Assembly: GCF_001982635.1 (NCBI RefSeq)
Contig: NZ_MKFI01000001.1
Span: 550,774-614,773, forward strand
From: Bradyrhizobium mercantei
GTDB taxonomy: Bacteria; Pseudomonadota; Alphaproteobacteria; Rhizobiales; Xanthobacteraceae
Direction: 5' to 3'
DNA length: 64,000 nt
The notes under the pieces are model-generated. The model was not told the DNA's origin, made no database searches, and saw nothing but the letters and a program-made list of their open reading frames with translations. Below are positions 56,517-58,304 of the stretch, piece after piece. The position numbers and the translations under genes are program-made. Numbering within the stretch: position 1 is the stretch's first letter; each line of letters begins with the position of its first letter.

Positions 56517-56885
56517 TTACGAAAACTTTCCCCAGGCGCGCTCCGTCACCCACCAGATGAACTTGTCTCCCGCGACGATGGCGGCGCCGACGACAAGCCA
56601 TGCCAAGACGTCGTCAGACCGCATAACAAGCCCTAACACCAGCACCGGCACGATCATCAACAGATAGTAAGGCCCGGTGTAGCGGCAGTGCGTCCTTCCG
56701 CAACGCCGCGCGTTGAGGATGCAGGCCAAAGCCATCCAGAGCAGTGCTGCGGACCACACCGCAATGCGCAGCGGCAGCGAGACGAGCAGGCCGACGAACA
56801 GGCCGGCGTGCGGCATCCACCAGGCCAACGCGCTGCTGCGCCAGCTGCCTAGCCAGTCGCGGGACGCGGGTGCAGATAAGGCCAT
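56517..56885 (-). CDS. small membrane protein with RCGRxHC motif, last gene of the mer-like operon
   Basis: 122 residues with about four hydrophobic helices (25-38, 42-57, 72-88, 94-107) and a cytoplasm- or loop-facing cysteine pair Cys62 and Cys67 in RRCGRTHCRYTGPYY. A two-cysteine loop in a small membrane protein next to MerT/MerP-like genes suggests metal handling (inference). Starts five bases after the GDCCVxC gene stop, so it is in the same operon. Convergent with argE, four bases apart. I do not know a functional name. Confidence 0.78.
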   Translation of the reverse strand: MALSAPASRDWLGSWRSSALAWWMPHAGLFVGLLVSLPLRIAVWSAALLWMALACILNARRCGRTHCRYTGPYYLLMIVPVLVLGLVMRSDDVLAWLVVGAAIVAGDKFIWWVTERAWGKFS

Positions 56886-56890
56886 GGCGT

Positions 56891-57118
56891 TCAGCACCGG
56901 CAGCCCGAGGCTGCGTCCGCGGCGCCGGAATGCTCGGCCTGGATCGGCGGACAGGGCACCGAGCCGAACGAGCAAAACACGCAGCAGTCACCCGGCTTCG
57001 GCCGCAGTCGCTCGCCGCACCCCGTGCAGACATAGAAATACTGGCAGGCGTCGGTCGGCATCGTCTCGGACTTCGTGGTGCCACACTGCGGACAGGTGAT
57101 GACGGATTGCAGGATCAT
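56891..57118 (-). CDS. GDCCVxC-motif protein (cysteine form of a (seleno)protein family)
   Basis: 75 residues with ten cysteines: CPQC (9-12), C25, CTGC (31-34), then the hallmark GDCCVFC (43-49) and two more cysteines downstream. I recognise it as the family annotated as GDCCVxC domain-containing (seleno)protein, some of whose members have selenocysteine in this motif; here it is cysteine. The first two CxxC pairs look like a zinc ribbon. It lies 21 bases after merP and five before a membrane-protein gene. Function unknown; metal or thiol chemistry is likely from composition and context. Confidence 0.85.
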   Translation of the reverse strand: MILQSVITCPQCGTTKSETMPTDACQYFYVCTGCGERLRPKPGDCCVFCSFGSVPCPPIQAEHSGAADAASGCRC

Positions 57119-57139
57119 GGTGCTCAGCTCGGCCCCTAC

Positions 57140-57424
57140 TCAGCCCTTCGGCGCTGAAGGATAACCGGCATTGCTTGTGGCGCTCGTAAGCGCCGTCAGA
57201 TCAACCTTGCTGTCGTCGTAGGTCACGACCGCGGTCTTCTCCCGGAACGACACTGCGACCTTCGTAACGCCGGCTACAGCTTCGAGGCTGGCCTTCACGA
57301 TATGAGGACAGGCTGCACAATCCATATTCCTGACAGCGAGTGTCACCGTCTTCTCGGCGGCGAACGTGGCAGACGATGCCAGCACCGAAAGCAGGATTGC
57401 GAAGGGAGTGATCAGTCGGTTCAT
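57140..57424 (-). CDS. merP: MerP-like periplasmic heavy-metal-binding protein
   Basis: 94 residues. Signal peptide to about 23 (FAA), then one heavy-metal-associated domain with the metal site MDCAAC (34-39), matching MerP's MxCxxC. MerP takes mercuric ions in the periplasm and passes them to MerT. Twelve bases downstream of merT; the ATG at 57424 has GGAG upstream. A general HMA chaperone for another metal is the alternative. Confidence 0.87.
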   Translation of the reverse strand: MNRLITPFAILLSVLASSATFAAEKTVTLAVRNMDCAACPHIVKASLEAVAGVTKVAVSFREKTAVVTYDDSKVDLTALTSATSNAGYPSAPKG

Positions 57425-57436
57425 GGGGAACTCCAT

Positions 57437-57823
57437 TCAGGTGTCGAACAACAATGGTGCCAGGAGGTCGAAACCGAGGGCCGCGATGGCGAGCAGCGTT
57501 GCCGCGACAAGCGTCGTCTTCACCAGGCGATTTGGCAGCGGACGTGCGCAGGCCGCTCCTTCGGCGCAGGCAACCTTCGAGGACCGATAGGTCAGCCAGT
57601 ACCCCGCGCCGAGAAGCGCTGATGTCGCCGCGATGAAATAAGGCTGGTACGGCGCAAGCCGCGTGAGGTTGCCGATCCAGGCGCCGCCGACACCGAGGCT
57701 GAACAGCAGCAGCGGCGCGATGCAGCAGGACGACGCAGCAAACGCGCCCAGCAGGCCGCCGGTCGCCAGCAGTTGCGACCCACGGCTGGAATGAGCGGTG
57801 ATATTGCTTTCCTTGACCTTCAT
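57437..57823 (-). CDS. merT: MerT-like mercuric ion transporter
   Basis: 128 residues with three hydrophobic helices. The cysteine pair SSCC (33-34) lies in the first helix and the cytoplasmic pair Cys86/Cys92 is in the loop before the third helix, the MerT arrangement for relaying Hg(II) inward. Start ATG at 57823. It has no ribosome binding site, and the predicted MerR-type promoter ends only seven bases before it, so the mRNA is probably leaderless. Confidence 0.88.
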   Translation of the reverse strand: MKVKESNITAHSSRGSQLLATGGLLGAFAASSCCIAPLLLFSLGVGGAWIGNLTRLAPYQPYFIAATSALLGAGYWLTYRSSKVACAEGAACARPLPNRLVKTTLVAATLLAIAALGFDLLAPLLFDT

Positions 57824-57830
57824 GCCGATG

Positions 57831-57861
57831 AGGCTACATCCTGTAGTCACTACAGGATCAA
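57831..57861 (-). promoter_or_regulatory. MerR-type promoter/operator with 19-base spacer
   Basis: On the minus strand -35 TTGATC (57861-57856), a 19-base spacer, and -10 TAGCCT (57836-57831). The spacer contains the perfect inverted repeat ATCCTGTAGT-C-ACTACAGGAT (57838-57858). This matches the known layout of the mer promoter in Tn501/Tn21 (TTGACT, 19 bases, TAAGGT), where MerR untwists over-long spacer DNA when Hg(II) binds. Confidence 0.85.
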
Positions 57862-57872
57862 GGGAACTGGGC

Positions 57873-58304
57873 ATGCGCGGGATCACGGCTTCGCGAGCGG
57901 ACGGGATGACGATCGGGCAGATTTCCGAACTGACCGGCGTCAACATCGAAACCATCAGGTACTACGAGAAGATCAGGTTGCTGCCGCCTCCCCTGCGCGC
58001 CGCCAACGGCCGGCGCATCTACGGTTCTACCGAATCGCGAGTGCTTGCCTTCGTCAGGCGGTCGCGCGAACTCGGCTTCTCGCTCGATGAAATCCGGGCG
58101 CTGTTGCGGCTGGGCGGTCCCGGCAAGGCGTCTTGCCGCGAAGTGCGGGACATCGCAACGCTGCACCTCGACGACATCCGCGCCAAGATCAGCGATCTCC
58201 GCAAGCTCGAACGCCTGCTGGCAGCGACAATCGCGCGATGCTCGGGAACGACCGCACCCGATTGCCCGGTTCTGGACATCCTCGACGTTCAGCGCCGGAA
58301 CTGA
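57873..58304 (+). CDS. merR: MerR-family regulator, Hg(II)-type cysteines
   Basis: 143 residues: N-terminal MerR helix-turn-helix (about 13-32; MTIGQISELTGVNIETIRYYEKIRLL), a dimerisation helix, and cysteines 88, 123 and 131. The Tn501 MerR mercury ligands are 82, 117 and 126, so spacing is 35 and 8 here against 35 and 9 there, supporting a metal-responsive, probably Hg(II), regulator. Start taken at 57873; an ATG at 57906 is an alternative. Divergent from merT across the MerR-type operator. Confidence 0.88.
   Translation: MRGITASRADGMTIGQISELTGVNIETIRYYEKIRLLPPPLRAANGRRIYGSTESRVLAFVRRSRELGFSLDEIRALLRLGGPGKASCREVRDIATLHLDDIRAKISDLRKLERLLAATIARCSGTTAPDCPVLDILDVQRRN

Follow-up and report, generated by a model that had tools for sequence, protein, structure and literature searches.

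Within the 64,000-nucleotide stretch of the Bradyrhizobium mercantei genome analyzed here (contig NZ_MKFI01000001.1, positions 550,774 to 614,773 of the forward strand; hereafter the window), five genes form what appears to be a MerR-controlled mercury operon that has no mercuric reductase (MerA) and carries, in MerA's slot, the gene of a small cysteine-rich protein of the GDCCVxC family. We tentatively favor, at slightly less than an even chance, the reading that this protein acts as a cytosolic Hg(II) acceptor that replaces MerA. The reading is carried by the gene content and operator of the unit, by the exchange of GDCCVxC with merA in the same slot, by the recurrence of the arrangement in other genomes, and by purifying selection on the GDCCVxC gene.

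In the unit, merR faces merT, merP, the GDCCVxC gene and the gene of a membrane protein with an RCGRxHC motif, which we label MEM. All five genes were confirmed at 56517-58304 of the window by open reading frame (ORF) reading and, MEM apart, by Pfam and NCBIfam profile matches, and the operator was located in the promoter between merR and merT. A preliminary description of this DNA, which had proposed this gene order behind a MerR-type promoter with no MerA in the unit, is borne out in these respects.

57906-58304, plus strand: merR, a MerR-type regulator of 132 amino acids, with Pfam MerR_1 and MerR-DNA-bind above cut-off.
57841-57855, unstranded: MerR operator dyad CTGTAGTCACTACAG, lying within the spacer of the TTGATC-19 bp-TAGCCT promoter directed at merT.
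57437-57823, minus strand: merT, 128 amino acids, PF02411 at 80.7 bits (cut-off 32.9).
57140-57436, minus strand: merP, 98 amino acids, TIGR02052 (mercury equivalog) at 103.3 bits (cut-off 92.55).
56891-57118, minus strand: GDCCVxC gene, 75 amino acids, NF041374 at 104 bits (cut-off 40).
56517-56885, minus strand: MEM, a 122-amino-acid membrane protein whose ATG lies 5 bases past the GDCCVxC stop, predicted to have four helices and containing the loop RRCGRTHCRYTGP.

The structural genes are tightly packed, with gaps of 0, 21 and 5 bases between merT and merP, merP and the GDCCVxC gene, and the GDCCVxC gene and MEM. The transport pair of a mer operon is present, MerT by PF02411 and MerP by TIGR02052. 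MerT misses the stricter NCBIfam MerT equivalog cut-off (85 vs 150 bits); its first helix bears a CC pair, and a later loop bears another cysteine pair, C-x6-C. The 172-amino-acid ORF call for merT begins too far upstream, and the coordinates listed above are those of the corrected gene. MerP has a signal peptide-like N-terminus and the metal site MDCAAC.

The promoter between merR and merT has the form TTGATC-19 bp-TAGCCT and lies over the dyad CTGTAGTGACTACAG. The corresponding operator pattern, CTGTAGNNNCTACAG, had a single occurrence in the window and was absent from all 100 shuffles, and it was found in 83 of 208 fetched loci, many of them overlapping, in both merA-type and GDCCVxC-type units. 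The window MerR has three metal-site cysteines, one in the segment SCREV and two in the C-x7-C loop RCSGTTAPDCP. This loop is common to the window protein and the merA-linked MerR proteins of the same lineage; more distant units, merA-type and GDCCVxC-type alike, have an x8 loop. The regulator therefore shows the three metal cysteines and the operator of a mer operon, though it misses the MerR equivalog cut-off (107 vs 151 bits). Because the MerR loop and the operator match those of merA-linked units, and because MerP lies above the mercury equivalog cut-off, we read the metal handled as Hg(II). The same observations argue against a redirection to another metal, which the preliminary description had considered possible.

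No MerA above the family cut-off was found in the whole assembly, an 8.84-Mb draft of 72 contigs. The MerA model gave 22 matches, the best at 349 bits against a cut-off of 454. The four best pass the cut-offs of other flavoproteins (dihydrolipoyl dehydrogenase for three and glutathione-disulfide reductase for one), and the next match scores 73 bits. The C-terminal tail LSCCAG is absent from all four, while it is present in 12 of 12 MerA proteins extracted from a sample of the phylum, which had 22 places above cut-off. The reading as an ordinary split mer locus whose merA lies elsewhere in the genome, a point that the preliminary description had marked for checking, was therefore rejected for this assembly. 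Profile searches of the assembly returned a single MerT gene, that of the window, and two GDCCVxC genes, that of the window and an unlinked copy 541 kb away (L011, G000:C1:66727-66897), whose 3.2-kb locus showed no mer gene and no MerR operator. MerB had no match in the genome, but the profile was equally silent in 14 control genomes, so its absence is not established.

The GDCCVxC protein matches positions 1-57 of the 58 in NF041374 and thus belongs to this family. It contains 11 cysteines, one more than the preliminary description had counted, and nine of them are kept in 51 aligned sequences including that of the window (seven invariant, two nearly so). Residues 5-39 match the zinc ribbon 1qyp (E 7.8e-4), and a predicted cytosolic zinc ribbon would use C9, C12, C31 and C34. 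The further conserved cysteines, namely C25, C45, C46, C49 and C56, include a vicinal pair. MerA takes up Hg(II) by a vicinal cysteine pair at its tail. We infer that the five further cysteines may form a soft-metal site on the zinc ribbon. No match to flavin or NADPH domains with an active-site disulfide was found in the 75-amino-acid protein by Pfam or NCBIfam, and by sequence it is not a mercuric reductase. A selenocysteine form was also considered and rejected: in three GDCCVxC stretches that contain in-frame stops, TGA was translated as U, and one proved to be an intact cysteine form ending at its own TGA, while the other two look frameshifted.

Among the four structural genes, the GDCCVxC gene has the lowest rate of nonsynonymous substitution (dN) in 8 of 8 comparisons. 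Between the window and its closest relative, the ratio of nonsynonymous to synonymous rates (dN/dS) is 0.10 for GDCCVxC, 0.17 for merT, 0.18 for merP and 0.28 for MEM, and for GDCCVxC it stays at 0.09-0.11 over the 7 usable comparisons. These ratios are rough, as dS exceeds 1 in most comparisons and L086 is the sole close pair. The low dN and dN/dS of GDCCVxC speak against a relic.

The neighbors of GDCCVxC were tabulated, along the lines proposed in the preliminary description, in 146 genomes of the genus (that of the window included) and 299 genomes of the phylum, and the merA-less composition proved recurrent. Genes were called adjacent when their start coordinates lay at most 4 kb apart on the same contig, and in both samples the MerA searches were limited to scoring the 5 to 10 top candidates of each genome. 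Matches above cut-off occurred in 86 genus genomes for GDCCVxC, 27 for MerT and 9 for MerA; MEM occurred in 8 at E 0.001. Genus MerT places, counted at E <=0.001, number 36 (35 above cut-off, and one, G396, under it). They lie beside GDCCVxC in 25 cases, beside MerA in 9, beside both in 0 and beside neither in 2, although contig ends conceal some neighbors, including in G327, one of the last two. For the 57 phylum MerT places above cut-off, the neighbor is GDCCVxC only in 31, MerA only in 14, both in 3 and neither in 9.

The 25 MerT-GDCCVxC units of the genus are spread over 21 genomes, of which 17 have no MerA above cut-off anywhere and 4 have MerA elsewhere; none of the 25 units has MerA within 4 kb. 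The preliminary description would have regarded the unit as an ordinary split mer locus if merA stood beside related operons in most relatives and on this genome and the two small genes showed no phenotype; as regards merA, these counts show the opposite. The merA-less MerT-GDCCVxC arrangement is broad and repeated, not exclusive. Two single loci are also of note. In L020 (genome G160, 278-1045), a 256-codon MerA-like frame beside GDCCVxC and MerT keeps the active site and the CC tail but is too short for a whole MerA, and is possibly a deleted MerA. On plasmid pSCD (L109, 3001-3219), the GDCCVxC gene belongs to an arsenic operon, where it is flanked by genes of an ACR3 arsenite exporter and a permease; an arsenite methyltransferase gene follows downstream.

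The exchange of GDCCVxC with merA is seen most directly upstream of MEM. A MEM profile scan of species genomes yielded 18 loci, some from genomes that are also in the genus sample and with near-copies among them (L093 and L094, which have the same sequence, and L095 and L096). The gene just upstream of MEM is GDCCVxC in 12 of these loci; merA lies upstream in 4, and 2 have neither, one of which (L098) begins at a contig end. In L093 and L094 merA is directly upstream, and in L089 and L099 small frames intervene. Among plasmid loci, merA and MEM are immediate neighbors, in that order, in L106, L207 and L208; an IncC and a Glaciecola plasmid have two genes between them.

A tree of MerT and MerR was built from 64 rows, out of 66 chosen from the 208 fetched loci. 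It shows 7 switches between the merA and GDCCVxC types, and well-supported branches force at least 4 of these; several rows are identical, so the count of changes is the safer figure. The window groups with a unit of Bradyrhizobium macuxiense (support 100), and its next outside relatives include the merA-MEM units L089, L093 and L094 at moderate support (81-86). Because MEM follows either gene and the tree shows repeated exchanges, GDCCVxC and MerA appear to be alternative genes behind a single import pair. The preliminary description had left it between GDCCVxC and MEM, or both, to complete the pathway; GDCCVxC is the likely partner, since it occupies MerA's slot.

The core of the unit has been sequenced before. 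Tn5563 of plasmid pRA2 (Pseudomonas alcaligenes) carries merR and merT-merP-GDCCVxC, with GDCCVxC as an unnamed fourth gene, and 217 plasmid records match the Tn5563-type module, 208 at >=99% and 151 over >=80% of the module in one place. Passages in the literature term this module merRTP, part of an operon, incomplete or defective (PMC4785139, PMC10488154, PMC7096625, PMC4133298). The suggestion in the preliminary description that the system is undescribed thus holds only in part: the core is present in Tn5563 and its plasmid matches, and the protein family has been named by NCBI, but no paper on the GDCCVxC gene as a member of a mer operon, and none with the word 'GDCCVxC', was found in the open-access literature searched, which omits most subscription journals.

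By analogy with known mer operons, the predicted importers MerP and MerT would bring in Hg(II). GDCCVxC would then receive the metal from these importers and bind it through its cysteines, where the bound Hg(II) might be buffered and slowly released to cellular thiols such as glutathione. A glutathione-reductase-like flavoprotein that is co-encoded in some operons may assist this release. MEM, finally, could serve as an accessory transporter whose cytosol-facing cysteine pair exchanges metal with GDCCVxC or MerA.

Several observations weigh against GDCCVxC as a dedicated replacement for MerA. The strongest against a self-sufficient detoxifier comes from Tn5563a, an isoform of Tn5563 (the GDCCVxC layout given here was read from the Tn5563 sequence). 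According to passages of PMC4447125, Tn5563a in 15 strains (13 isolates and 2 controls) shifted the minimal inhibitory concentration (MIC) of Hg down at least twofold in 6 and up in 2, and the authors ascribe the lowered MIC to the missing MerA. This result is compatible with an importer that has a cytosolic partner able to cope in some hosts and not in others. The metal is also not settled by the MerR protein by itself, which scores alike with the equivalog models of MerR, CueR and CadR (each about 105 bits, all under cut-off). Furthermore, the assembly is a draft, and merA could lie on an unassembled plasmid. The structure model of GDCCVxC is poor (predicted local distance difference test, pLDDT, 53.7), too poor for a fold search, and its metal site is read from conservation. 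In L100, the dN/dS of merP falls under that of GDCCVxC (0.095 vs 0.114). Three phylum units carry MerA and GDCCVxC together, and merA and MEM are directly adjacent in only 2 of the 4 merA-type loci of the MEM scan. Lastly, GDCCVxC is not beside a counted MerT in 92 of 117 genus places and 66 of 100 phylum places, and some individual GDCCVxC genes have arsenic- or copper-related surroundings. Because most places lack a MerT neighbor and some have these other surroundings, GDCCVxC probably serves soft metals more widely.

The alternative that survives best is a split reductase, in which GDCCVxC would be a detached metal arm of MerA that passes Hg(II) to a separate glutathione-reductase-like flavoprotein, from the operon or the host, for reduction to Hg(0). 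Four genus operons have the order merT-merP-flavoprotein-GDCCVxC, with a 448-codon flavoprotein frame between merP and GDCCVxC, and the flavoprotein lies in or beside three further units (L158, L091, L184). The active site GGTCALRGC is present in all four, and a CC tail in none; the one that was scored reached 300 bits on the MerA model (cut-off 454) and 292 on glutathione reductase. A passage of PMC11227200 gives the name MerK to glutathione reductases in mer operons, one of PMC8261052 cites a cyanobacterial MerA-like enzyme with a requirement for glutaredoxin, and the host dependence of the Tn5563a effect would fit as well. However, 21 of the 25 genus units have no room for a flavoprotein gene between merT and GDCCVxC, and the flavoprotein also occurs in operons that possess MerA. 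The genome of the window contains none of this kind, its four matches above 300 bits being the other enzymes named above. We therefore consider a split reductase unlikely, though worth keeping in view. As a separate observation, a long flavoprotein frame of the MerA superfamily (736 codons) lies directly upstream of GDCCVxC in L029 (genome G029, 2-1710), where there is no MerT match.

A second alternative gives MEM the larger role: GDCCVxC would collect cytosolic Hg(II) and MEM would export it. The 152-codon ORF of MEM had no Pfam or NCBIfam match at E 0.01, and the 122-amino-acid protein had one Pfam match under cut-off (DUF2079, E 0.008). Its AlphaFold2 model is a four-helix bundle (mean pLDDT 89.2) with no informative match among solved structures. 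Residues C55, C62, R64, H66 and C67 are invariant in 36 aligned rows, and by the positive-inside rule we place the loop RRCGRTHCR on the predicted cytosolic face. MEM was also considered as a relative of MerT or MerC and rejected: no mer family matched, and the hhalign probability was 0.3% to the window MerT and one MerC, with shallow profiles.

In genome G407 (L190, 2109-2792), MerR and the same operator control a GDCCVxC-MEM pair, with no merT or merP there and no MerT match in the genome, and in a Perlucidibaca metagenome-assembled genome (L103, 9734-10345) GDCCVxC and MEM are fused in one 204-codon ORF. Because of this regulated pair and this single ORF, GDCCVxC and MEM appear to work directly together. 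The pair and the fusion, with the adjacency of GDCCVxC and MEM in 12 of the 18 MEM loci, would suit capture and export. However, MEM is present in just 6 of the 25 MerT-GDCCVxC units of the genus, where one copy has stops and another is a fragment, and it is found behind merA as well, a setting in which Hg(II) export would serve no purpose. MEM is thus dispensable, and we regard export as improbable. Away from these units, MEM occurs in L097 (10001-10357) with no mer gene in the 10 kb upstream; thioredoxin-like and SCO1-like genes lie nearby, by frame reading.

We find it about as hard to credit that the unit is a relic, a decaying mer operon that lost merA, as Tn5563 is portrayed in print. 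The terms defective and incomplete (passages of PMC4785139 and PMC10488154), the sensitization of 6 of 15 hosts by the module (PMC4447125) and the broken MEM copies would all agree with decay. Decay is not the pattern of the GDCCVxC gene, the slowest-evolving of the four in every dN comparison. Moreover, the GDCCVxC layout is found at 25 of 36 genus and 34 of 57 phylum MerT places, merA and GDCCVxC have been exchanged repeatedly on the tree, and the operator and regulator are kept.

That the unit serves another soft metal or metalloid (arsenic, copper or cadmium) instead of mercury is the least probable alternative: GDCCVxC does occur in an arsenite operon, near ArsR or CadR regulators and near copper genes, the window MerR is equal on the MerR, CueR and CadR models, and its C-x7-C loop has the length that we take CueR's to be, but the merA-linked MerR proteins of the same lineage share the loop and operator, and MerP lies above the mercury equivalog cut-off.

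The genes flanking the unit look unrelated to it. Beyond MEM, a predicted peptidase-family gene on the opposite strand ends 4 bases from the MEM end, and beyond merR lies a drug/metabolite-transporter-like gene.

Units without merA are filed as defective because MerT and MerP without MerA are thought to sensitize cells, which a passage of PMC10488154 describes as Hg hypersensitivity. Yet in this genus they exceed the merA-type units (25 vs 9 MerT places); their regulator is retained, and MerA's slot is filled by one conserved small gene. A passage of PMC8261052 raises, for MerB, the question of how cells cope that have mer genes and no MerA. Should GDCCVxC handle Hg(II), much of bacterial mercury handling escapes surveys based on counts of merA, and about two hundred plasmid records carry mer modules that need a new reading. 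A broader proposal, which we consider possible but doubtful, is that these units form a reductase-free class of mer operon: imported Hg(II) would be caught on a small zinc-ribbon protein, glutathione and separate flavoproteins would complete MerA's job in pieces, and 'defective' merRTP modules, including Tn5563, would be functional members.

The classical mer operon of the Tn501/Tn21 type has the gene set merR, merT, merP and merA. The window unit shares with it a MerR facing MerT-MerP, the 19-bp-spaced promoter and the central dyad, and differs in having no MerA, GDCCVxC in MerA's slot, and an extra membrane protein with no named family. Tn5563 and Tn5563a, on pRA2 and on IncP-6 and other plasmids, are closer in layout: Tn5563 has the window's merR-T-P-GDCCVxC order, but it has no MEM and its MerR loop is one residue longer. 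The window protein is a near full-length member, in the cysteine form, of NF041374, the NCBIfam GDCCVxC domain-containing (seleno)protein, a model whose name and description give no function. The flavoprotein of the four genus operons resembles MerK in general kind, and the window unit has none. The accessory transporters MerC, MerE and MerF are, like MEM, small mer-operon membrane proteins with a conserved cysteine pair; MEM has no detectable sequence relation to the one MerC compared or to the window MerT. For MerE, the cysteines and histidine were tested, according to a passage of PMC5715351.

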